Shown one piece after another: positions 2,719 through 46,147 of a stretch of 64,000 nt of DNA (its first letter is position 1; every line of letters begins with the position of its first letter). The DNA lies in contig BEHR01000002.1 of the NCBI GenBank assembly GCA_002898555.1, positions 62,001 through 126,000 of the forward strand, read 5' to 3'. This stretch comes from a bacterium HR15 (GTDB taxonomy: Bacteria; Armatimonadota; Fimbriimonadia; Fimbriimonadales; GBS-DC). The notes under the pieces are model-generated. The model was not told the origin of the DNA, searched no databases, and saw nothing but the letters and a program-made list of their open reading frames with translations. Made by a program: the position numbers and the translations under genes.

Positions 2719-2991
2719 ATAGGATTTGTCTCTTTTAGTATCCTGAAATTTTTTCTCTGACCCAGCTTCGCTGAGTACCCCAGAGAAAAAATTTCACCTG
2801 AACTTGCTCTCCCGTGGACACACCTGAAATTTTTTCTCTGACCCCACTGCGCGGAGTACCCCAGAGAAAAAATTTTTCCTGAAATTTTTTCTCTGACCCC
2901 ACTGCGCGGAGTACCCCAGAGAAAAAATTTTTCCTGAAATTTTTTCTCTGACCCAGCTTCGCTGAGTACCCCAGAGAAAAAATTTCACTCG
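2719..2991. repeat. Tandem array of four palindromic elements
   Basis: Four near-identical elements of about 51-53 bp lie at 2745-2795, 2826-2878, 2881-2933 and 2936-2986. Each has a left arm GAAATTTTTTCTCTG, a loop beginning GACCC and ending GTACCCC, and a right arm CAGAGAAAAAATTTC or a one-base variant. Copies one and four share the loop core AGCTTCGCTGA. Copies two and three share ACTGCGCGGA. A 30-bp unrelated spacer separates copies one and two; the others are 2-3 bp apart. The array fills the gap between the starts of the M20 gene and the end of nusB. A 64-codon open frame through it is only the repeat translated. Confidence 0.95.
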
Positions 2992-9713: not shown

Positions 9714-9841
9714 GGAGGGCGAGCGTCCCCGCGAGCCGACATGCGTGACGAAGACAATCCTGTCTTAGTGCGGCGTCGGTTGGAATGGCTCGGCGGGAAC
9801 CTCGCCCTCCAGATTCGGCTCGGCGGGAGCCTCGCCCTCCA
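9714..9841. repeat. GGCTCGGCGGGAGCC repeat cluster, locus 1
   Basis: Two direct copies of a 25-bp unit, GGCTCGGCGGGAGCC followed by TCGCCCTCCA, lie at 9787-9811 and 9817-9841 with a 30-bp period. An inverted, diverged copy lies at 9714-9738. Each unit contains a small hairpin (GGCTC/GAGCC). The same layout of one inverted copy followed by direct copies recurs at 31353-31503. Confidence 0.9.
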
Positions 9842-9897
9842 AAATGCCCAAGCGTGAATGCCTACCCATCTCCTTGAACTCCAGTTTTTAAACAGCT

Positions 9898-9917
9898 GGG
9901 TCAGAGAAAAAATTTCA
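9898..9917. repeat. Half palindromic element
   Basis: GGGTCAGAGAAAAAATTTC is exactly the right arm and loop edge of the elements at 2745-2986, with no left arm. It lies between ligA and the acetyltransferase gene and may be a decayed copy or a remnant of a broken insertion. Confidence 0.75.
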
Positions 9918-9958
9918 TGACGGAAGAACCTCTCACGCGACGCGAGAGGCTTAGGGCG

Positions 9959-11254
9959 TTAAAAATAGTCCATTGGGCGCAAGCAGGGAGAGCGAGCGGG
10001 GAACAGTTGATCCAGAGTGTCTATCAAAGCAGGGGGCGCATCCAGCAGCTCACGCACTGCGAGTTCGCTTGCACTGAAAGTGCCCATCGTGAGCAGTGCG
10101 AGCGAGCGCATATTGAGGCGCACGATGGGCAAGCCCTCATGCCCTCCCCGCGCCACATGCCAGCCCTTTGAATCCGCAAACACCGTGTACACCCCTGTGT
10201 TTGCCTCAATCTGGGGATCGTGAACCGCCATGCAGAAGGGCTGCACTCCCTCGGTAGGGCATGCCCTCAACAGCCGCTGCAACAGGTCATGTGGATGCAC
10301 CACGCGCCACATGAAGCCGGGCATTATCTCCCATCGCAGGAACGGCTCTCCCGGATCGCGGTGTGTGGGTGTCCAGCCCGTCAGTTGCAGCGATGCCAGT
10401 TCATCAGGTGTTCCGCTAAACTCGACCTGACGCACATGTTCCTCGTTCGCCGCGAGCCAGCCTATCAACGCATGCCGTGCCCGCTCCGTAAGCCAAAGCA
10501 TCTCACGCACACGGAGCACCCAGCCCGCTTCGACAAAGTCGTAAATCAAATAACCTTCCAGCGCCCCGTTATGGCAATAAACGAGCTTGTGGCGAAAGTT
10601 CCACAACAGATAGCTCCAGCGCAACTCGTCGCGCAGCAGGCGTCCGGTGGCAGGGCGCACTCGCTGTTCGTACAGATGGCGGATGGCAGGATAGTCCGTT
10701 TCAAGGGCACGCCGCACCCCCTCAGGTGGGAAAGGCGGCAGCAGCAGGGGAGCTACGCGCACGCGCATCAGGCTTCCCACCACCTCCCAGCCCAGCGGAC
10801 GATAGAAATCGAGATCGAACGCTTGCAGCGCTGCTCCCGGGATGCCCTGCGTATGGAGCGCGTTCAGCACGGCGGTCAGGAGGCGGCGCGCATAGCCGCG
10901 CCGACGGTATTGCGGGTGGGTCGCTACCCCAGCGATGCCCACACAGGGAACCAACTGCTCGCCGATCCACATCTGCAAGGGGATAACGGTCAGAATAGAA
11001 ACCAGCGTTCGAGATGCTCCCTCACCTACCCACAACCCCCACCGCTGATTGTGGGGATAATAAGGGTCGTTGTAGAAATAAGGGCGTGCCGTTGCCAGAT
11101 CAAAGCCAAAGCATTGACAGAGCAGGCGCAAAAACGCCTCCTCATCCTCCAGGATTTTCTTCTCCGACCCAGACGGGTACCCCGGAGAAGAAAATCCTGC
11201 TGGCGAGATCATCTCAATTTGCACGGGCAGTCGCCGCAGTTTTAACAGGTTCAT
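9959..11254 (-). CDS. GNAT-family N-acetyltransferase, Eis-like
   Basis: A 431-residue protein with the layout of Eis-type acetyltransferases: an N-terminal GNAT domain with the acetyl-CoA loop GVATHPQYRRRGYARRLL near 107-124, a second degenerate GNAT domain and a C-terminal sterol-carrier-like domain. The target is unknown; the family modifies aminoglycosides, lysines or small molecules. Start is the ATG at 11254 with GGAGAAGG upstream. Residues about 18-35 (SPAGFSSPGYPSGSEKKIL) are encoded by a complete palindromic element at 11150-11199 inserted in frame between QIEM and EDEEAFLRLL, where homologs normally run straight on. The reading frame is intact, so the protein probably tolerates the insert. 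Confidence 0.8.
   Translation of the reverse strand: MNLLKLRRLPVQIEMISPAGFSSPGYPSGSEKKILEDEEAFLRLLCQCFGFDLATARPYFYNDPYYPHNQRWGLWVGEGASRTLVSILTVIPLQMWIGEQLVPCVGIAGVATHPQYRRRGYARRLLTAVLNALHTQGIPGAALQAFDLDFYRPLGWEVVGSLMRVRVAPLLLPPFPPEGVRRALETDYPAIRHLYEQRVRPATGRLLRDELRWSYLLWNFRHKLVYCHNGALEGYLIYDFVEAGWVLRVREMLWLTERARHALIGWLAANEEHVRQVEFSGTPDELASLQLTGWTPTHRDPGEPFLRWEIMPGFMWRVVHPHDLLQRLLRACPTEGVQPFCMAVHDPQIEANTGVYTVFADSKGWHVARGGHEGLPIVRLNMRSLALLTMGTFSASELAVRELLDAPPALIDTLDQLFPARSPCLRPMDYF
11150..11199. repeat. Palindromic element inside the acetyltransferase gene
   Basis: The arms CAGGATTTTCTTCTCCG and CGGAGAAGAAAATCCTG form a perfect 17-bp stem around ACCCAGACGGGTACCC. The loop matches the intergenic elements while the arms differ from theirs in both strands together. 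It lies within the first 35 codons of the gene and keeps the frame. Confidence 0.93.
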
Positions 11255-11323
11255 CAACCTTCTCCAAGATTTTTTTTTTTTTCGACAGAGGGATGGCTAT
11301 TCCTGTGATGTCGGAGGATGAAC

Positions 11324-11366
11324 CAAAATTTTTTCTCTGGGGTACTGGGTCAGAGAAAAAATTTTG
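11324..11366. repeat. Compact palindromic element between genes
   Basis: CAAAATTTTTTCTCTG and CAGAGAAAAAATTTTG form a perfect 16-bp stem with an 11-nt loop, GGGTACTGGGT, which is the shared loop in the opposite orientation and shortened. A run of 13 T residues lies 40 bp upstream at 11270-11282. No gene is supported across this gap. Confidence 0.9.
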
Positions 11367-13238: not shown

Positions 13239-14570
13239 ATGCGAATCCTGCTCGGCTTGATCGGGCTTGCCACGATACTGGGTTTCACTTGGGCGCAGTT
13301 AACGCGCGAGGAGCGGCGCGAGGGCTTCCGCCCTTTGCTCAACGGTAAAGATCTACGCGGCTGGAAGGTCTACGCCGGACCCGACTGGCGCATCGAAAGC
13401 CGCGAAAAGGAAATTCTACTGGTTGGACCTACTCAAGGCGCAGGATGGATTGGCACGGAGGCCGAGTACGATAACTTCATTTTGCGCGGAGAATACTGGA
13501 TCGATAAGGGCGAGACCCACGAATCGAACAGTGGCATTTTTATTCGCGCTCAGCGCACCGCCACCCCATGGATCGATGGCTACGAAATCCAGATTAGTCT
13601 GCAAGACCCGAACAATCCGACGGGCAGTATCTATGGACGAGTGCCAACCCATCTGGAGCGCATGCGCGAAATCGCGCCCGAAAAACAGTGGAACCGCTTC
13701 GAGATTCGTGCCTGTGGCAGCCGGATCCAGGTTGTTATTAATGGCGAGATGGTACAGGATGCCGACCTACACGAGTTTTCAAAGGGTGTGATTGGCTTTC
13801 AGCAGCACCATCCGGGCGTGACGGTGCGCTTTCGCAACCTCCGCATCAAACCGCTTAAGGCAAGCGAGTGTGACGAAGGCTGGCAGCCCTTGTTCAATGG
13901 CAAAGACCTCACTGGCTGGTTCGCCACAGGGCTGGCACGCTGGGAGGTCAGAGCAGGATTGTCTTCTCCGACCCAGCAGGCAAAAATTTTTTCTCTGACC
14001 CAGACGGCAAAATTTTCTTTTCCGACCCAGCAGGGTACCCCGGAAAAGAAAATTTTGGGTACCTCAGAGGAAAAATTTCGGAGTGCCCCGGAGAAGGAAA
14101 TTATAGAGGGCGTTCTTGTTGGGCAGGGTGGCATGGGACACCTTTTTACTGAGCGCACATTCCGCGATTTCGAGCTGCGAGCCATGATTCGCATCCGCCC
14201 GTATAAAGACGATTCGCCCTTCAAACCGAATAGTGGCATCTACTTCCGCGCGAAGCCCAACCCGGAAAACCCGAATAATTGGCCTATTGGTTATGAAGCG
14301 CAAGTGTACAACCATATGGAGGCACAACCCTTCACCGGCTCGCTGTACAATCGGGCACGCGCCAGCCGCCTGCTCACCCGCGATGGGGCATGGTTCTCCA
14401 TGCGCATCGTGGCGAAGGGCGACCATATCCAGATCTTTGTGAACGGTCAGAAGGTGGTGGATGCACGGGATAGCGAATTTCGCGAGGGACATATCGCCAT
14501 TCAGTGCCACGACCCCTTCACCATCATCGAGATACGGGACATTTATTGGCGAGCGGTCCGTGATAAGTAG
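13239..14570 (+). CDS. Secreted protein with two DUF1080 domains and an in-frame repeat insert
   Basis: A 443-residue exported protein (signal peptide [20 protein letters not shown]) with two DUF1080 (3-keto-disaccharide hydrolase-like, concanavalin-type) domains. Each starts with an F.PL.NGKDL.GW motif ([13 protein letters not shown], then [13 protein letters not shown]) and carries an [10 protein letters not shown] or PNSGIYFRA motif. These domains are common in glycan-degrading proteins of planctomycetes and related phyla. In domain two, about 50 codons (13955-14104) between WEVRAG and [11 protein letters not shown] come from three nested palindromic elements. The flanking sequence is collinear with domain one, so the insert appears to be an addition and not a replacement. 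The frame stays open. Whether domain two still folds is unknown. Confidence 0.8.
13955..14104. repeat. Three nested palindromic elements inside a coding gene
   Basis: The inner element has perfect 17-bp arms CAAAATTTTCTTTTCCG (14008-14024) and CGGAAAAGAAAATTTTG (14041-14057). It sits in the loop of a middle element with left arm 13981-13997 and right arm about 14065-14080. That in turn sits in the loop of an outer element with left arm 13955-13970 and right arm about 14089-14104. Each left arm is followed by ACCCAG, and each right arm is preceded by a GGTACCC-like or TGCCC stretch. Arm decay increases from inner to outer, which implies the order of insertion. Confidence 0.93.
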
Positions 14571-31352: not shown

Positions 31353-31503
31353 TGGAGGGGGCTTCCTGCCGAGCCGTTAGTTGTCTGCTCTTCAAAACCT
31401 CTGCCAATATTCTTTAACGGCTCGGCAGGAGCCTCGCCCTCCAATCTCGGCTCGGCGGGAGCCTCGCCCTCCAATCTCGGCTCGGCGGGAGCCTCACCTT
31501 CCA
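31353..31503. repeat. GGCTCGGCGGGAGCC repeat cluster, locus 2
   Basis: Three direct copies at 31419-31443, 31449-31473 and 31479-31503 with a 30-bp period follow an inverted copy at 31353-31376. The unit contains the hairpin GGCTC/GAGCC. In one frame it translates as SAGASPSNLG repeats, but there is no start or family support for a protein. It fills most of the 327-bp gap after sucC; nothing else is supported there apart from the promoter downstream. Confidence 0.9.
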
Positions 31504-31562
31504 GCGAACCGCATGAATTTCCGAACACCCTCCGACCCGATTGACTTTCCAGCCACTGAGCA

Positions 31563-37805: not shown

Positions 37806-39365
37806 ATGCCTGAGCTTCGCACAAGCCTTCTCATCGTCGGCGGGGGGTTGGGGGGATGTGCGGCGGCGATGGCGGCGTCGTCGCTGCGCATCCCCACCAT
37901 CCTCACCGAAGAGAGCGACTGGCTTGGCGGACAGCTCACGGTGCAAGCGGTGCCGCCCGACGAGCATCGCTGGATCGAACAACAGGGCTGCACGCGTCGC
38001 TACCGCGCCTTTCGAGAGGCGGTGCGCGACCACTACCGACGCTACTACCCCTTGACCAACGCCGCGCGGGCCGACCCTCATTTGAACCCCGGCGGTGGGT
38101 GGGTCAGCCGCCTGTGCCATGAGCCGAAGGTCGCCCTTGCCGTGCTGAACGCGATGCTCGCCTATCCCCAGATGGCAGGCTGGCTGAAAGTGTGGCACCA
38201 TATGCACCCTGTCGAAGTGTTGACCGAAGGCGATTTTGTTCGGGCGGTGCGGTTCCAATGGGCGGAGGGAAACACAGAGGTTGTTATCTATGCCGACTAT
38301 ATTCTGGATGCGACGGAGACGGGCGAGCTATTGCCGCTGGGGGGTGTGGAGTATGTCACAGGGGCTGAATCGCAGCGTGAAACGGGTGAACCCCACGCCA
38401 AGCCTGAACCTCAACCGCTCAATATGCAGGCGGTCACCTGGTGCTTCGCGATGGCGTATGACCCAAAAGGCAACCACACGATTGCCAAGCCCGCCCGCTA
38501 TGCATGGTGGCGCACCTTTCAACCCCCTTTCTGGCCAGGTCCGCTGCTTGGTTGGGTCGATATCCACCCCATCACGGGGCAGCCGCGTCGCTGGAGCCTT
38601 TTTGGCGAGGAGGGCACGCCTGCCTTGTTCAGCTATCGGCAGATTGTGAACCCGACGCTTTATCCTTCGGAAATCGCGCCGTTGCCCGTGACTATCGTGA
38701 ACTGCCCCCAAAATGATTACTTTCTGGGTCCGCTGTTTGAGGTGTCGGCACAGGAAGCGTTGCAGCACTGGCAGGGTGCGCGCGAGCTATCCGAGTGCCT
38801 GCTGTACTGGTTGCAGACGGAAGCGCCGCGCCCCGACGGTGGGGTGGGCTATCCGGGACTGTACCTGCGCCCCGATATAACGGGCACGCCCGACGGCTTC
38901 GCGAAGATGCCATATATCCGCGAATCGCGCCGAATCAGAGCACGATTCACTATTTGTGAGCCCCATGTGTGCGCGGACTGTCGCCCAGGCGAAAAACTTG
39001 CGGAGCCATTTGCCGATAGCGTCGGCATCGGGCACTACCGCATCGACCTGCACCCCAGCACTGGAGGCGACCCCTATCTGGACATCGACGCGCTGCCGTT
39101 CCAGATACCGTTAGGTGCGCTGCTCCCCGTACGGGTGCGCAATCTGTTGCCTGCTTGCAAAAACATCGGCACGACCCACATCACCAACGGCTGCTATCGA
39201 CTGCACCCGGTGGAATGGAATATCGGCGAGTCGGCAGGTTTGCTAACGGCGTTCTGTTTGCTGCGTGGAGTGGAGCCGCATCAAGTGTATGAAACCCCCG
39301 CGCTGCTGAGCGAGTATCAAGCCCTGCTGCGTTCCCAGGGCATCCCGCTGGTATGGGAACTTTAG
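37806..39365 (+). CDS. FAD-dependent oxidoreductase
   Basis: A 519-residue flavoprotein of the FAD_oxidored family found in planctomycetes and related groups. The nucleotide-binding motif LLIVGGGLGGCAAAMAA is at residues 8-24, then GGQLTVQAVP, and a conserved ILDATETGELLPL segment near 166-178. The C-terminal part includes [20 protein letters not shown]. It follows the PqaA-like gene by four bases. Codons from base 38649 onward belong to the first copy of the 4,066-bp tandem duplication; this copy is intact. Substrate unknown. Confidence 0.88.
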   Translation: MPELRTSLLIVGGGLGGCAAAMAASSLRIPTILTEESDWLGGQLTVQAVPPDEHRWIEQQGCTRRYRAFREAVRDHYRRYYPLTNAARADPHLNPGGGWVSRLCHEPKVALAVLNAMLAYPQMAGWLKVWHHMHPVEVLTEGDFVRAVRFQWAEGNTEVVIYADYILDATETGELLPLGGVEYVTGAESQRETGEPHAKPEPQPLNMQAVTWCFAMAYDPKGNHTIAKPARYAWWRTFQPPFWPGPLLGWVDIHPITGQPRRWSLFGEEGTPALFSYRQIVNPTLYPSEIAPLPVTIVNCPQNDYFLGPLFEVSAQEALQHWQGARELSECLLYWLQTEAPRPDGGVGYPGLYLRPDITGTPDGFAKMPYIRESRRIRARFTICEPHVCADCRPGEKLAEPFADSVGIGHYRIDLHPSTGGDPYLDIDALPFQIPLGALLPVRVRNLLPACKNIGTTHITNGCYRLHPVEWNIGESAGLLTAFCLLRGVEPHQVYETPALLSEYQALLRSQGIPLVWEL

Positions 39366-39403
39366 GCTCAAGCCCCCCTGGCGAACGCAGGTGGAATGTT
39401 TGG

Positions 39404-39411
39404 GGTATAAT
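39404..39411 (+). promoter_or_regulatory. Extended -10 element, dockerin gene copy 1
   Basis: GGTATAAT lies 42 bp before the GTG start at 39454, in the context TGGGGTATAATAG. Confidence 0.55.
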
Positions 39412-39453
39412 AGTCATGGACGCGATCACAACGGCGTCCAAAGGAGAAAAACG

Positions 39454-42081
39454 GTGAACTATCGCATGCAGTGTGGTCGTGCGCTCCTAACGAGTGCGCT
39501 GGTAGTTTGTAGCATTGCGATGCATGGTCTTGCTGATCAGAAGGGAGAAATCCGTTCTGCTGATGGCGAGCGCCAACTGATTGATCTGCCGCCCGCGGCG
39601 TTTGCGGGCATTCCGCATGACCCGTCCCGGCAAGGTGGTTCTCCTGGATGGGTGATGCCTCTCCGCGTGTCTACCGAGTGGTTCCCGGCGCAGCCGCCGC
39701 TGCGTGAACCGTTTCGTCAGCGTGAAGCACCTCGCCACGAGGTAGAAACAGAGCGCATCCCCGGCGATTCGACCGCCGCGCAAATCTTTCAGCCCTCCAT
39801 CAGCGACTTCTACCCACAAGCCTTGGATGCCTTCCGCTGGTTCGATGCCATCGGTCCGAACGACCTCACTCCACCCGATACGAACATTGCGGTGGGTCCA
39901 AGCCATGTGGTCATGGTGACCAACGACGACTGGGCGATCTACGACCGCAACGGCAACCAACAGTATCGGGTGGACATCCAGACCTTTCTGAACACCACCG
40001 ATTTCATGTTCGACCCACGCGCAGTGTATGACCCTTGGAACGGGCGGTTCCTGATCCTTTACCTGCGCTCGCGAGGTTCCAACAGTTCGCAGGGTTCCTG
40101 GTGGACGCTCATGATTTCCGACGATGCGAATCCCCATGGCACCTGGTGGGTTTACAACTTCAACGCACGCCTCGATGGCAGCACCGACAGGAATCAGTGG
40201 GTGGACTTTCCGCATCTGGGCTATGACAACGAGGCGGTCTACCTTGCTGGGAATATGTACAATGTGGGCGGCGGCTTCCGCTACGCGAAGGTGCGTATCC
40301 TCTGGAAGGACCAGATCTACAGTGGTGCGAATGCTGCTTGGTACGATTTCTGGGACCTGCCCCCCACAGTGGCGCCAGCCCAGGGCTATCGGGTGCTGGT
40401 AACTCCTCGCCAGCACTACTGGGCGCAGATTCCTGGTGGAGGCGGCAACTATGTGCGTGTGTATCGCATCGAGAACCCGACAGCATGGCATCGGGGCACA
40501 GGCACGCCCAACTTAGTTCTTCAGGCGGATATCGGGGTTGGTTCCTATTCGCCCCCGCCTGATGCCCGTGAGCCAGGCAGAGGACGGGTACTGTGGACAG
40601 TAGATTGCCGTATCACCGACAAATCGCGCCTGAACTATCCCTATCTCTACACCTGCCACCATGTGGGCGTGTCTTCTGGCTCTGCAGTCGGCTCCAAGTA
40701 CTATCGCCTCGATGTGTCGAACAACACGGCACTACGCGACGCCCTACTGTGGTTCGGGGTCGCTTACGACGGTTTCTTCCCCACGCTGGAAGCGACGCGC
40801 GATGAGGACATGGCGTTGGGACTGAACATTTCCAACGGGGATGCCGGCAGTCCCTACTATGTGACCTTCGCGGTCTACGAGTGGCTGAACAGCAGTGGTA
40901 GTATCGGACCAAGCATTGGCTTGCGCTTTGGTAGCGGAGTAGCAGGGCAAGGCTCCACCGCCAATCGCTGGGGCGACTACTCTGGCTCGCAGTTAGACCC
41001 CTGTGACTTTCGCACGGTCTGGTTAGCGGGTGAACATGCGCGCCCTGGCACATGGATGACCTCCGCACATGAGATCACGCTGAACAAGGTGCGCAGCGCG
41101 CTCAGCTGCGCCAATGCTGCTGAGCGGCGCGGAATGCCCGTCACGCTCAGCGCAACGCTTACTCGCACCGACACCAACGCCGGCATCGCCAACGCCCCCG
41201 TCGACTTCTATGTGGACGGCAACTATGTGGGCAGTGCGACCACCAACAGCTCCGGCGTCGCCCAACTCAACTACACCATCCCGAATAGCTTCAGCCCGGG
41301 TAGCAATCACCCTATTACTGTCGAGTTCAACTATTGCCCCTCAAACGACCAGTTCAGTTGGAGCCGTTCGGAATGCACGCTGCATGTGCTGTTGGAGATA
41401 GGCGATGCAGGCGACCTGCCAGAGACTTCCCAATCCACGCCGAGCGGCACCCTGTCGGTGATCGACGGCGTGTTGGGCGACAACGATGTCGATATGTATG
41501 CCATCTACTTGCCCAACCCTGCAGCGTTCACCGCGACGACTGTGGGGGGCGCAAGCTTTGACACCCAGCTCTGGCTGTTTGGTCCCGATGGCAAGGGTGT
41601 GGCATTCAACGACGACTCAAGCGGCACCCTCTCGACTATCGACAACTCATCAGGTTGTCTAACGGGGCGTCCTGCGGGCGTCTATTATCTGGCAATCAGT
41701 CGCTATAATCGAGACGCGCTGGGCTGTCGGAATCAGACAATCTGGAACAACACGCCCTTCAATACCGTGCGCTGCCCCGATGGACCAGACGCTGCCTATC
41801 GAGTGAATGGCTGGATAGGTTCGACAGCAGCGGGTGGTATCTATACTATCACGCTGACCAATGCACAGGGTGCGAACCGCGGTGATCCTGCGGACTGCTG
41901 CGTTGCCCATAACGGCGATGTGGACAACAACGGCTGCGTGGATGATGCTGACCTCTTAGCCGTGCTGTTCGCCTTTGGGCAAACGGGCGACAACTTGGGT
42001 CGCGTGGATGTGAACTGTGACCGAGTGGTGGACGACGGTGACCTGCTGCTGGTGCTGTTCAACTTCGGCAGCGGGTGTTAA
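39454..42081 (+). CDS. Large secreted protein with PPC and dockerin-like domains, copy 1
   Basis: An 875-residue exported protein. GTG at 39454 is the start because GGAG lies seven bases upstream; the next ATG at 39466 is too far. The signal-like segment is ALLTSALVVCSIAMHGLA. A long N-terminal region (about 100-500) with repeated aromatic motifs may be a beta-propeller, a bacterial Ig-like domain follows near 575-630 (GMPVTLSATLTRTDTNAGI), then a pre-peptidase C-terminal (PPC) domain near 655-760, and a dockerin-like tail with GCVDDADLLAVLFAF and RVVDDGDLLLVLFNF ending NFGSGC. No protease domain is visible. An identical second copy lies at 43520-46147. Confidence 0.8.
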   Translation: MNYRMQCGRALLTSALVVCSIAMHGLADQKGEIRSADGERQLIDLPPAAFAGIPHDPSRQGGSPGWVMPLRVSTEWFPAQPPLREPFRQREAPRHEVETERIPGDSTAAQIFQPSISDFYPQALDAFRWFDAIGPNDLTPPDTNIAVGPSHVVMVTNDDWAIYDRNGNQQYRVDIQTFLNTTDFMFDPRAVYDPWNGRFLILYLRSRGSNSSQGSWWTLMISDDANPHGTWWVYNFNARLDGSTDRNQWVDFPHLGYDNEAVYLAGNMYNVGGGFRYAKVRILWKDQIYSGANAAWYDFWDLPPTVAPAQGYRVLVTPRQHYWAQIPGGGGNYVRVYRIENPTAWHRGTGTPNLVLQADIGVGSYSPPPDAREPGRGRVLWTVDCRITDKSRLNYPYLYTCHHVGVSSGSAVGSKYYRLDVSNNTALRDALLWFGVAYDGFFPTLEATRDEDMALGLNISNGDAGSPYYVTFAVYEWLNSSGSIGPSIGLRFGSGVAGQGSTANRWGDYSGSQLDPCDFRTVWLAGEHARPGTWMTSAHEITLNKVRSALSCANAAERRGMPVTLSATLTRTDTNAGIANAPVDFYVDGNYVGSATTNSSGVAQLNYTIPNSFSPGSNHPITVEFNYCPSNDQFSWSRSECTLHVLLEIGDAGDLPETSQSTPSGTLSVIDGVLGDNDVDMYAIYLPNPAAFTATTVGGASFDTQLWLFGPDGKGVAFNDDSSGTLSTIDNSSGCLTGRPAGVYYLAISRYNRDALGCRNQTIWNNTPFNTVRCPDGPDAAYRVNGWIGSTAAGGIYTITLTNAQGANRGDPADCCVAHNGDVDNNGCVDDADLLAVLFAFGQTGDNLGRVDVNCDRVVDDGDLLLVLFNFGSGC

Positions 42082-42094
42082 AAAGCCTGTAGTC

Positions 42095-42120
42095 GGGAGC
42101 AGACCTATGTGTCTGCCCGA
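42095..42120. repeat. GCAGACC/TCTGCCC short palindrome, copy 1
   Basis: GGGAGCAGACC and GTCTGCCC form a hairpin just after the dockerin gene stop. Related sequence recurs at 60182-60239. Confidence 0.55.
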
Positions 42121-42138
42121 ACCAGTGTGTCTATCGAG

Positions 42139-42163
42139 GAGGGGCGCGGTTGCCGCGCCCCTC
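42139..42163 (+). terminator. Strong hairpin after the dockerin gene, copy 1
   Basis: GAGGGGCGCGG and CCGCGCCCCTC form a perfect 11-bp stem with the loop TTG. There is no long U tract, so it may act as an mRNA-end stabiliser or a Rho-linked terminator. Confidence 0.55.
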
Positions 42164-42207
42164 TCATCGAGCTGAGAGGATGGGATGCCCACGCCACAGC
42201 AGATATG

Positions 42208-42215
42208 GGTATACT
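42208..42215 (+). promoter_or_regulatory. Extended -10 element, PqqC-like gene copy 1
   Basis: GGTATACT lies 26 bp before the ATG at 42242. Confidence 0.5.
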
Positions 42216-42241
42216 CCTTGCCACATGGAGGGACGAGACCG

Positions 42242-42757
42242 ATGACGATCAAGGAGCAACTGGATCAGGTGATAGCCCGGTGGAACTTGCTGGAGCATCC
42301 GTTCTATCAGGCATGGAATGGGGGCACGCTGCCCATAGACGCGCTGCGCGATTACGCCCGTGAATATGGCGCGTTTATCTGCGAGCTACCTGCAGGCTGG
42401 CGCATCCAGCAGGACGAGGAGACTGCCCATGAGGAAGAGGAGCATATCGAACTGTGGGCGCAGTTTGCTATATCGCTGGGCGTGACGGTTGGCATGCCAC
42501 AACGCTCTGCCGTGCACCATCTGGTGATGACCGCACGCGAGCTGTTCGCGGAGCCAGCCACTGCGCTGGGCGCGCTCTACGCCTTCGAAGCGCAGCAACC
42601 CGCCACCGCCCAATCCAAGCTGGAGGGGCTAACGCGCCATTATGCACTGCCTGACGGTGTGCGCCCCTATTTTGAGGTGCATGCCGCCAATCACCACGAG
42701 GCGGAAAAACTACTAACCCGACGCTTTATCCTTCGGAAATCGCGCCGTTGCCCGTGA
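42242..42757 (+). pseudogene. PqqC/TENA-like gene, truncated by the duplication junction
   Basis: This copy matches the intact gene at 46308-46898 for about 159 codons. The frame then crosses the duplication junction at 42715 into the oxidoreductase sequence out of frame (ending [11 protein letters not shown]). The last helix of the heme-oxygenase-like bundle is therefore lost, and the product is probably not functional. Confidence 0.85.
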
Positions 42758-43431
42758 CTATCGTGAACTGCCCCCAAAATGATTACTTTCTGGGTCCGCT
42801 GTTTGAGGTGTCGGCACAGGAAGCGTTGCAGCACTGGCAGGGTGCGCGCGAGCTATCCGAGTGCCTGCTGTACTGGTTGCAGACGGAAGCGCCGCGCCCC
42901 GACGGTGGGGTGGGCTATCCGGGACTGTACCTGCGCCCCGATATAACGGGCACGCCCGACGGCTTCGCGAAGATGCCATATATCCGCGAATCGCGCCGAA
43001 TCAGAGCACGATTCACTATTTGTGAGCCCCATGTGTGCGCGGACTGTCGCCCAGGCGAAAAACTTGCGGAGCCATTTGCCGATAGCGTCGGCATCGGGCA
43101 CTACCGCATCGACCTGCACCCCAGCACTGGAGGCGACCCCTATCTGGACATCGACGCGCTGCCGTTCCAGATACCGTTAGGTGCGCTGCTCCCCGTACGG
43201 GTGCGCAATCTGTTGCCTGCTTGCAAAAACATCGGCACGACCCACATCACCAACGGCTGCTATCGACTGCACCCGGTGGAATGGAATATCGGCGAGTCGG
43301 CAGGTTTGCTAACGGCGTTCTGTTTGCTGCGTGGAGTGGAGCCGCATCAAGTGTATGAAACCCCCGCGCTGCTGAGCGAGTATCAAGCCCTGCTGCGTTC
43401 CCAGGGCATCCCGCTGGTATGGGAACTTTAG
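42715..43431 (+). pseudogene. 5'-truncated fragment of the FAD oxidoreductase gene
   Basis: This repeats the last 239 codons of the 37806-39365 gene, starting at the junction. The FAD-binding N-terminus is absent, and the first possible start (TTG at 42748) lacks promoter and ribosome binding site. It is a by-product of the tandem duplication. Confidence 0.9.
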
Positions 43432-43469
43432 GCTCAAGCCCCCCTGGCGAACGCAGGTGGAATGTTTGG

Positions 43470-43477
43470 GGTATAAT
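43470..43477 (+). promoter_or_regulatory. Extended -10 element, dockerin gene copy 2
   Basis: This is the duplicate of the GGTATAAT motif at 39404-39411, at the same distance before the GTG at 43520. Confidence 0.55.
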
Positions 43478-43519
43478 AGTCATGGACGCGATCACAACGG
43501 CGTCCAAAGGAGAAAAACG

Positions 43520-46147
43520 GTGAACTATCGCATGCAGTGTGGTCGTGCGCTCCTAACGAGTGCGCTGGTAGTTTGTAGCATTGCGATGCATGGTCTTGCT
43601 GATCAGAAGGGAGAAATCCGTTCTGCTGATGGCGAGCGCCAACTGATTGATCTGCCGCCCGCGGCGTTTGCGGGCATTCCGCATGACCCGTCCCGGCAAG
43701 GTGGTTCTCCTGGATGGGTGATGCCTCTCCGCGTGTCTACCGAGTGGTTCCCGGCGCAGCCGCCGCTGCGTGAACCGTTTCGTCAGCGTGAAGCACCTCG
43801 CCACGAGGTAGAAACAGAGCGCATCCCCGGCGATTCGACCGCCGCGCAAATCTTTCAGCCCTCCATCAGCGACTTCTACCCACAAGCCTTGGATGCCTTC
43901 CGCTGGTTCGATGCCATCGGTCCGAACGACCTCACTCCACCCGATACGAACATTGCGGTGGGTCCAAGCCATGTGGTCATGGTGACCAACGACGACTGGG
44001 CGATCTACGACCGCAACGGCAACCAACAGTATCGGGTGGACATCCAGACCTTTCTGAACACCACCGATTTCATGTTCGACCCACGCGCAGTGTATGACCC
44101 TTGGAACGGGCGGTTCCTGATCCTTTACCTGCGCTCGCGAGGTTCCAACAGTTCGCAGGGTTCCTGGTGGACGCTCATGATTTCCGACGATGCGAATCCC
44201 CATGGCACCTGGTGGGTTTACAACTTCAACGCACGCCTCGATGGCAGCACCGACAGGAATCAGTGGGTGGACTTTCCGCATCTGGGCTATGACAACGAGG
44301 CGGTCTACCTTGCTGGGAATATGTACAATGTGGGCGGCGGCTTCCGCTACGCGAAGGTGCGTATCCTCTGGAAGGACCAGATCTACAGTGGTGCGAATGC
44401 TGCTTGGTACGATTTCTGGGACCTGCCCCCCACAGTGGCGCCAGCCCAGGGCTATCGGGTGCTGGTAACTCCTCGCCAGCACTACTGGGCGCAGATTCCT
44501 GGTGGAGGCGGCAACTATGTGCGTGTGTATCGCATCGAGAACCCGACAGCATGGCATCGGGGCACAGGCACGCCCAACTTAGTTCTTCAGGCGGATATCG
44601 GGGTTGGTTCCTATTCGCCCCCGCCTGATGCCCGTGAGCCAGGCAGAGGACGGGTACTGTGGACAGTAGATTGCCGTATCACCGACAAATCGCGCCTGAA
44701 CTATCCCTATCTCTACACCTGCCACCATGTGGGCGTGTCTTCTGGCTCTGCAGTCGGCTCCAAGTACTATCGCCTCGATGTGTCGAACAACACGGCACTA
44801 CGCGACGCCCTACTGTGGTTCGGGGTCGCTTACGACGGTTTCTTCCCCACGCTGGAAGCGACGCGCGATGAGGACATGGCGTTGGGACTGAACATTTCCA
44901 ACGGGGATGCCGGCAGTCCCTACTATGTGACCTTCGCGGTCTACGAGTGGCTGAACAGCAGTGGTAGTATCGGACCAAGCATTGGCTTGCGCTTTGGTAG
45001 CGGAGTAGCAGGGCAAGGCTCCACCGCCAATCGCTGGGGCGACTACTCTGGCTCGCAGTTAGACCCCTGTGACTTTCGCACGGTCTGGTTAGCGGGTGAA
45101 CATGCGCGCCCTGGCACATGGATGACCTCCGCACATGAGATCACGCTGAACAAGGTGCGCAGCGCGCTCAGCTGCGCCAATGCTGCTGAGCGGCGCGGAA
45201 TGCCCGTCACGCTCAGCGCAACGCTTACTCGCACCGACACCAACGCCGGCATCGCCAACGCCCCCGTCGACTTCTATGTGGACGGCAACTATGTGGGCAG
45301 TGCGACCACCAACAGCTCCGGCGTCGCCCAACTCAACTACACCATCCCGAATAGCTTCAGCCCGGGTAGCAATCACCCTATTACTGTCGAGTTCAACTAT
45401 TGCCCCTCAAACGACCAGTTCAGTTGGAGCCGTTCGGAATGCACGCTGCATGTGCTGTTGGAGATAGGCGATGCAGGCGACCTGCCAGAGACTTCCCAAT
45501 CCACGCCGAGCGGCACCCTGTCGGTGATCGACGGCGTGTTGGGCGACAACGATGTCGATATGTATGCCATCTACTTGCCCAACCCTGCAGCGTTCACCGC
45601 GACGACTGTGGGGGGCGCAAGCTTTGACACCCAGCTCTGGCTGTTTGGTCCCGATGGCAAGGGTGTGGCATTCAACGACGACTCAAGCGGCACCCTCTCG
45701 ACTATCGACAACTCATCAGGTTGTCTAACGGGGCGTCCTGCGGGCGTCTATTATCTGGCAATCAGTCGCTATAATCGAGACGCGCTGGGCTGTCGGAATC
45801 AGACAATCTGGAACAACACGCCCTTCAATACCGTGCGCTGCCCCGATGGACCAGACGCTGCCTATCGAGTGAATGGCTGGATAGGTTCGACAGCAGCGGG
45901 TGGTATCTATACTATCACGCTGACCAATGCACAGGGTGCGAACCGCGGTGATCCTGCGGACTGCTGCGTTGCCCATAACGGCGATGTGGACAACAACGGC
46001 TGCGTGGATGATGCTGACCTCTTAGCCGTGCTGTTCGCCTTTGGGCAAACGGGCGACAACTTGGGTCGCGTGGATGTGAACTGTGACCGAGTGGTGGACG
46101 ACGGTGACCTGCTGCTGGTGCTGTTCAACTTCGGCAGCGGGTGTTAA
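43520..46147 (+). CDS. Large secreted protein with PPC and dockerin-like domains, copy 2
   Basis: An identical duplicate of the gene at 39454-42081, with its promoter and downstream hairpin preserved, so both copies can be expressed. The gene doubles the dose of this exported protein. Domain order and start choice are as for copy 1. Confidence 0.8.
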   Translation: MNYRMQCGRALLTSALVVCSIAMHGLADQKGEIRSADGERQLIDLPPAAFAGIPHDPSRQGGSPGWVMPLRVSTEWFPAQPPLREPFRQREAPRHEVETERIPGDSTAAQIFQPSISDFYPQALDAFRWFDAIGPNDLTPPDTNIAVGPSHVVMVTNDDWAIYDRNGNQQYRVDIQTFLNTTDFMFDPRAVYDPWNGRFLILYLRSRGSNSSQGSWWTLMISDDANPHGTWWVYNFNARLDGSTDRNQWVDFPHLGYDNEAVYLAGNMYNVGGGFRYAKVRILWKDQIYSGANAAWYDFWDLPPTVAPAQGYRVLVTPRQHYWAQIPGGGGNYVRVYRIENPTAWHRGTGTPNLVLQADIGVGSYSPPPDAREPGRGRVLWTVDCRITDKSRLNYPYLYTCHHVGVSSGSAVGSKYYRLDVSNNTALRDALLWFGVAYDGFFPTLEATRDEDMALGLNISNGDAGSPYYVTFAVYEWLNSSGSIGPSIGLRFGSGVAGQGSTANRWGDYSGSQLDPCDFRTVWLAGEHARPGTWMTSAHEITLNKVRSALSCANAAERRGMPVTLSATLTRTDTNAGIANAPVDFYVDGNYVGSATTNSSGVAQLNYTIPNSFSPGSNHPITVEFNYCPSNDQFSWSRSECTLHVLLEIGDAGDLPETSQSTPSGTLSVIDGVLGDNDVDMYAIYLPNPAAFTATTVGGASFDTQLWLFGPDGKGVAFNDDSSGTLSTIDNSSGCLTGRPAGVYYLAISRYNRDALGCRNQTIWNNTPFNTVRCPDGPDAAYRVNGWIGSTAAGGIYTITLTNAQGANRGDPADCCVAHNGDVDNNGCVDDADLLAVLFAFGQTGDNLGRVDVNCDRVVDDGDLLLVLFNFGSGC

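Follow-up and report, generated by a model that had tools for sequence, protein, structure and literature searches.

Heterotypic nesting of short palindromic elements in a DUF1080 gene and across a Fimbriimonadales genome

A protein-coding gene of bacterium HR15, a relative of hot-spring Armatimonadota, contains three palindromic elements lying one inside another, and all three belong to a family that is dispersed through the same genome. We consider it probable that this family is a lineage-specific, non-autonomous mobile palindrome of ~50 bp that homes to hairpin loops, and that selection retains only in-frame copies where it enters genes. The genome (3.04 Mb, 72 contigs) is metagenome-derived. 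The window, i.e. the whole stretch of 64,000 nucleotides analyzed here, corresponds to positions 62001-126000 of contig C2.

The nested insert in the DUF1080 gene

The host gene (13239..14570, + strand; assigned from the ORF, PF06439 and orthologs) encodes a two-domain DUF1080 / 3-keto-disaccharide hydrolase protein of 443 amino acids with a signal-like N-terminus. PF06439 matches the protein in two stretches (E 6e-74). Its orthologs are 59-76% identical, and its closest named relatives come from Armatimonadota, Fimbriimonadales assemblies. Protein alignment with 15 orthologs and direct reading of the sequence delimit an insert of 153 nt, corresponding to 51 codons, at 13954..14106 on the + strand. 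Exactly these 51 residues are missing in 15 of 15 orthologs from the same family, the gap being located between W-x-V-[RK] and the glycine of GVL. Cutting out the insert joins GTCAGAG to AGGGC and yields V-R-E-G, where nearly all orthologs have V-K/R-D/E-G. Since excision of 13954-14106 restores this conserved motif, no target-site duplication is required at the DUF1080 site. The original prediction placed the feature at 13955-14104 with about 50 extra codons and an intact frame. The ORF 13239-14570 is indeed open throughout the insert, whereas the limits and the codon number had to be adjusted to the values above. The homolog alignment it had suggested revealed no homolog with the same residues.

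Three co-axial inverted repeats were found within the second DUF1080 domain. The arms of the inner repeat (14008-14024/14041-14057) pair at 17 of 17 positions, those of the middle repeat (13984-13998/14064-14078) at 93% over 15 and those of the outer repeat (13958-13970/14089-14101) at 85% over 13. The longest perfect arm is 17 at the insert but at most 13 in 200 shuffles, and the predicted fold of 13930-14130 (-76.6 kcal/mol, z -3.5) was equalled by none of 200 dinucleotide shuffles. Both the predicted triple nesting and the perfect 17-bp inner arms are thus confirmed, with complementarity far above that of shuffled sequence. The arm match also falls from the inside outwards as predicted, but not to about half in the outer repeat: its core pairs at 85% and only its outer ends are poor.

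Left halves follow one another in steps of 27 nt and right halves in steps of 24 nt, so that each nesting level gains 51 nt. All parts were assigned on the + strand. The outer element is of subtype B; its left half, CAGGATTGTCTTCTCCGACCCAGCAGG, occupies 13954..13980 and its right half, GTGCCCCGGAGAAGGAAATTATAG, 14082..14106 (boundary ±1-2 nt), each with 2 mismatches to the subtype arm. Within its loop lies the middle element of subtype D, with its left half at 13981..14007 (0 mismatches) and its right half at 14058..14081 (2 mismatches). The inner element (14008..14057, subtype C), identified from its inverted repeat and its copies, is intact, with 50 bp and perfect 17-bp arms, and entered the middle loop between ACCCAGACGG and GG. 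Copies identical to it exist elsewhere in the genome.

In an AlphaFold2 model of the DUF1080 protein, residues 242-288 have low confidence and lie between two confident strands, while the remaining fold is confident. We therefore propose that the insert may form a disordered loop; the protein carrying it is presumably made and working. It is conceivable that the 51 residues are an ancestral or functional part of DUF1080 that was lost in other lineages, as the insert preserves the frame and reads through as a hydrophilic stretch without stops. We regard this as highly improbable, given the empty orthologs, the occurrence of the same DNA at more than 100 unrelated places and the lack of confident structure in the model. 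Equally improbable is an artefact of assembly. The metagenome-derived genome is split into 72 contigs, several of which end in these repeats, but the 153-nt insert lies in the middle of a 158-kb contig with its frame intact and arms that pair across it, and dozens of copies have unique flanks.

The element family and its insertion points

The exact core GACCCA..GTACCCC has 73 matches in the genome, compared with 1 and 3 (4 in all) for the reversed control. A covariance model gave 144 matches on both strands of the source genome and none in 25 relatives, and a tighter pattern 60 matches as opposed to none in 112 further members of the class. Loop and arm patterns, for which the original prediction had recommended a search of related genomes, are thus absent from these 112, and insertion points were recorded in the source genome. 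An exact-pattern scan of 84,980 species genomes, a collection from which the source genome itself was possibly left out, detected 0 other carriers. No match to the palindrome family was obtained in IMG/VR viral contigs, in phage and plasmid records or in Rfam. The best explanation is a lineage-specific family that expanded recently.

Parsing of 429 kb around the matches yielded at least 117 clusters with 156 arm-paired elements and 55 unpaired arms. These copy numbers cover the stretches around matches and are lower bounds; the true numbers are probably higher, since several contigs end in these repeats. The element is almost fully palindromic, with 50 bp and 17-bp arms at both ends. Most units measure 48-53 bp, and one copy with a short loop measures 43 bp. 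The arms fall into three recurrent subtypes, B (TTTTCTTCTCCG), C (TTTTCTTTTCCG) and D (TTTTTTCTCTG), and the loop of D often has 12 nt. Changes that distinguish subtypes and variants are matched between the two arms, which indicates that the palindrome itself is preserved. The clusters are mostly intergenic, with about a dozen of the at least 117 located in genes.

Further copies are present in the window. The minus-strand gene at 9959-11257, which encodes an Eis-like GNAT protein (ORF and domain match), carries near its predicted N-terminus, putatively inside the coding start, one in-frame element of subtype B (11150..11199, - strand) whose arms show compensatory changes (CAGGATTTT/AAAATCCTG). 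Upstream of this gene, a subtype-D hairpin with a shortened loop (GACCCAGTACCCC), to which no strand is assigned, lies at 11324..11366. By arm parsing, four subtype-D hairpins with 12-nt loops of the AGCTTCGCTGAG type stand head-to-tail in an intergenic region (2744..2987, + strand), and a lone D arm, i.e. a half element without partner, was located at 9894..9920 (- strand).

The genome contains 39 intact nested pairs, in all of which the inner unit occupies a single point of the outer loop. Long D loops carry a net insert of exactly 50 nt between AGCTGCGCT and GAG, C loops 48 nt between AGCAG and GGG, and short D loops 50 nt between AGACGG and GG; in loops other than long D the net length is 49-52. 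With the hairpins drawn by eye, this point appears to be the 3' edge of the loop and not its centre. The loop was predicted to be a constant target of nesting, which held in 39 of 39 intact pairs, although the position within the loop is shifted to this edge. The empty orthologs, the recurrence of one loop point in dozens of nested copies and the self-pairing heterotypic modules likewise support the predicted serial insertion into a preferred loop. At least three intact levels were found in four clusters, one of which (C26:51342) has four.

Beyond the original prediction, which described a single locus, the data reveal more than 100 family copies, a strictly heterotypic nesting and a second palindrome family as a target. 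Homotypic nests account for 0 of the 39 pairs, whereas 13.5 are expected by permutation and the minimum in 20,000 permutations was 3. Probably they are lost by slippage between their identical direct repeats of ~27 nt, which would explain their absence. Stacks that have lost a half, e.g. (C D) C), occur frequently. The proposed order of ages, with a perfect inner and a decayed outer element, applies to the DUF1080 locus but was rejected as a genome-wide rule, because the more diverged member is the outer one in 11 pairs and the inner one in 8, with 20 ties.

The nests may have arisen on a few occasions only; whole composites would then have spread when the outermost repeat recombined or transposed, and the apparent loop targeting would reflect copying. 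Identical [D (B B) D] units in tandem on C1 and C32, with more copies on C34 and C67, point in this direction, as do the C-type elements in the GGGGCAGAC palindrome, whose copies often have longer flanks in common. Certain composites, namely D elements containing B and the second palindrome containing C, may have been copied as units, and nested events are hence not all independent. As a general account this is nevertheless unlikely, albeit deserving serious consideration. The nested pairs comprise several loop variants and both orientations of the inner unit, C or B is found inside D, D inside C or B, and C inside B at unrelated flanks, and the DUF1080 and ArgC nests are located at unique coding sites.

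Outside the family itself, a second, unrelated palindromic repeat was also entered, between GGGGCAGACCTGCGTG and TCTGCCC, at ~20 of 103 outermost sites. This palindrome also occurs empty, both in the source genome and in relatives without the element family, and the insertions into it can be explained without target duplication. At C12:7050 its loop holds just CAAAATTTTG, which corresponds to two element ends joined and resembles a footprint. Such a remnant is expected of a deletion between the AAAATTTT repeats at the element ends. At the remaining 83 outermost sites palindromic flanks are not above chance (8 versus 7.4 expected, stems of at least 5), which suggests a strong preference for hairpin loops but no strict requirement. 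Insertion junctions share no common AG duplication.

Copies in frame within genes

About ten genes carry copies in frame. In argC the insert has 78 nt, composed of one C unit and a half unit, and is absent from 11 orthologs. An FAD oxidoreductase gene has a net in-frame insert of 51 nt where orthologs have an empty site. Domain coverage points to further in-frame hosts, among them MtaB, an amidase, a DinG/YoaA-like helicase, an AAA ATPase and an MctB-domain protein. The AAA ATPase (L215:2119-3294, + strand) resembles the methylation-associated defence ATPase MADS3, with a score below the curated cut-off. In the model of ArgC, the insert (residues 112-132) likewise has low confidence and is located between helix 97-108 and strand 137-140. 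Such copies in conserved enzymes are clear cases of mobile DNA lengthening proteins.

Outside genes the net lengths of nests range from 49 to 52, while the genic ones that were checked are multiples of three. This difference suggests that frame-keeping is due to selection and is not a property of insertion. Subtypes B and C contain no stop codon in any of the six frames and are therefore able to persist in genes, whereas the long form of D has stop codons in four frames. At nine of 11 intragenic loci the element is translated in one of two ways, ..SPTQTGTPEKK.. or ..PGYPSGSEKK... With two subtypes open in all six frames, one may ask whether the element has been selected for harmlessness in genes.

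Possible mobilization and known systems

Small palindromic repeats are common in genomes, and their movement is rarely explained. Here, movement is suggested by the dispersal of the family together with the empty orthologous sites. A copy would enter a DNA hairpin loop at a set position towards its 3' side, without, or nearly without, target duplication. Targets would be the loop of a sister-subtype element, giving rise to nested stacks, the loop of the second palindrome and also non-palindromic sites. The preference for hairpins suggests that the target may be read as extruded or single-stranded DNA, possibly by an enzyme acting in trans. In genes, the survivors would be those with a net length divisible by three and a tolerable hydrophilic peptide. 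For the DUF1080 gene we assume that B entered first, followed by D and then C, which together contribute 3 x 51 nt, presumably forming a disordered loop; for homotypic nests we suppose a collapse by slippage, as outlined above. With an insertion point defined to the nucleotide by dozens of natural events, plentiful filled and empty sites and sister subtypes as mutual targets, such a mechanism is directly testable.

A mobilizing enzyme linked to the family was not found among the Y1, IS110, DDE_Tnp_1 and RT candidates examined. The genome's one Y1 gene (C10:34510) was rejected as a RAYT partner because no family arm lies within ~1.5 kb and relatives without the family have a similar gene. This single-copy gene (L224:1384-2154, reverse strand, around C10:34510-34848) adjoins the GTPase gene der, and from its sequence the Y1 (IS200/RAYT-type) domain seems to be fused to a C-terminus resembling sigma-70 region 4. 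The occurrence of a similar gene in most relatives of the same family suggests domestication. For IS110/IS1111-type DEDD transposases (PF01548) there was no match in the source genome, for DDE_Tnp_1 (PF01609) two weak ones, and the stretches around matches contain no related full-length transposon. An RNA route receives no support, since the sole RVT_1 belongs to a Cas6-RT-Cas1 fusion beside cas2. This single fusion of ~897 aa (L264:478-3171, - strand, contig C35) and cas2 (L264:200-592) form a reverse-transcriptase CRISPR adaptation module, and RVT_1 is absent from most relatives searched. The unpaired arms were also inspected for a long, gene-carrying element bounded by two half palindromes, and the 2.4-kb case on C22 is not an IS. 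There, a lone D half-element (C22:43020) and a partial stack [B B] D] (45456, L210) are 2.4 kb apart, separated by ordinary genes that read as argH-like and flagellar-like. Homologous integration of an excised circle was rejected because it would place the arms side by side and not nested.

The absent duplication, the palindromic termini and the hairpin targets resemble single-strand chemistry, and both a protein supplied in trans and a repair or template-switch route are possible. Polymerase template switching, which has been proposed to generate palindromes (PMC6649704), or misprimed repair could copy palindromes into stalled hairpin loops without any enzyme. The paired arm changes, insertion into hairpin loops without target duplication, the many half-lost stacks with their 55 unpaired arms and the failure to find a transposase would all fit. 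We judge this route improbable: the units are full-length, family-conserved and sharply ended, they occupy distant loci and non-palindromic sites in genes, and none of this is seen in the 112 class relatives, several of which have the same second palindrome. A far-reaching version of the preferred mobile-palindrome reading is a loop-homing hairpin transposon. This would be a gene-less 50-bp element targeted at a fixed offset to hairpin loops, including those of sister subtypes but never its own. It would move without duplicating its target, by means of an enzyme or a repair pathway of undescribed kind, and two of its subtypes would be built to be translatable in any of six frames. We put this forward as a tentative and rather doubtful extension.

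The behaviour of the family is similar to that of Rickettsia palindromic elements (RPEs) and of yeast mitochondrial GC clusters; the analogy does not imply kinship to either. RPEs (Ogata et al.) have 105-146 bp with 12-bp terminal repeats and occur in frame in genes of conserved proteins, where they are apparently tolerated, as in gmk (PMC2229807). Both families are short, palindromic, dispersed and non-autonomous and are found between genes as well as in frame in conserved protein genes; insertion of the RPE type is seen here in DUF1080, ArgC and FAD oxidoreductase by comparison with orthologs. The present elements differ in size (~50 bp versus 105-146 bp), sequence and phylum as well as in their serial nesting at a single point of the loop, and the word 'nested' is absent from the RPE review PMC2229807. 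The scan of 84,980 genomes likewise gave no carrier that would link the family to RPEs, and it is confined to one Fimbriimonadales genome. GC clusters (GC42; PMC4478555) are mobile palindromes of ~42 nt with several subtypes that merge into larger hairpins, have conserved stems, leave footprints and lack a known enzyme, and their AG target dinucleotide is duplicated. The two are alike as mobile palindromes of ~40-50 nt that merge but differ in the bacterial chromosome, the missing AG duplication and the fixed heterotypic loop point in place of merged clusters; in-frame coding inserts are not described for GC clusters in the passages compared.

Insertion at a specific point of a palindromic repeat is also known from ISPsy8, IS1397 and IS621, which enter REP hairpins, ISPsy8 at the symmetry axis of the predicted hairpin with a 3-bp direct repeat (PMC1525189). 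These IS carry their own transposase, whereas the incoming unit here is a gene-less 50-bp hairpin. REP/BIME hairpins are small, high-copy and thought to be moved in trans by the Y1 protein TnpA-REP (RAYT; PMC2817692, PMC8266576). They share with our family the many short imperfect palindromes in mostly intergenic positions, but the one Y1 gene of this genome has no flanking elements. In Nematomorpha mitochondria long inverted repeats inside ORFs are seemingly actively maintained without a dispersed family (PMC6649704); the location within reading frames is similar, whereas here a dispersed family of inserts is involved. A MITE of a DDE transposon would have terminal inverted repeats and a small non-coding size in common with the element. 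The fixed-length target-site duplication of such a MITE was not found, however, since the long D loops have a net gain of exactly 50 nt and the others 49-52. Literature searches on palindromes in Fimbriimonadales/Armatimonadetes returned nothing relevant. No description of the sequence, the size, the lack of duplication or the heterotypic nesting at a fixed point was found in the literature compared.

Other repeats were noted in the same genome. The hairpin GGGGCAGACCCCTGTGTCTGCCC, a palindrome abundant in several relatives, forms tandem arrays with a period of 33 in L053 (around C35:12600-12760) and L197 (C34:3294-3382). A separate repeat family (GGCTCGGCGGGAGCCTCGCCCTCCA) is found at 9784-9842 and 31416-31504 of the window, and LEGEAPAEP-type stretches in an ORF at C19:4269 look like this repeat read in frame. 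The window also contains a direct duplication (38649-43014 and 41914-46139) with a spacing of 4066 bp, 300 nt of 100% identity and dockerin-like repeats.
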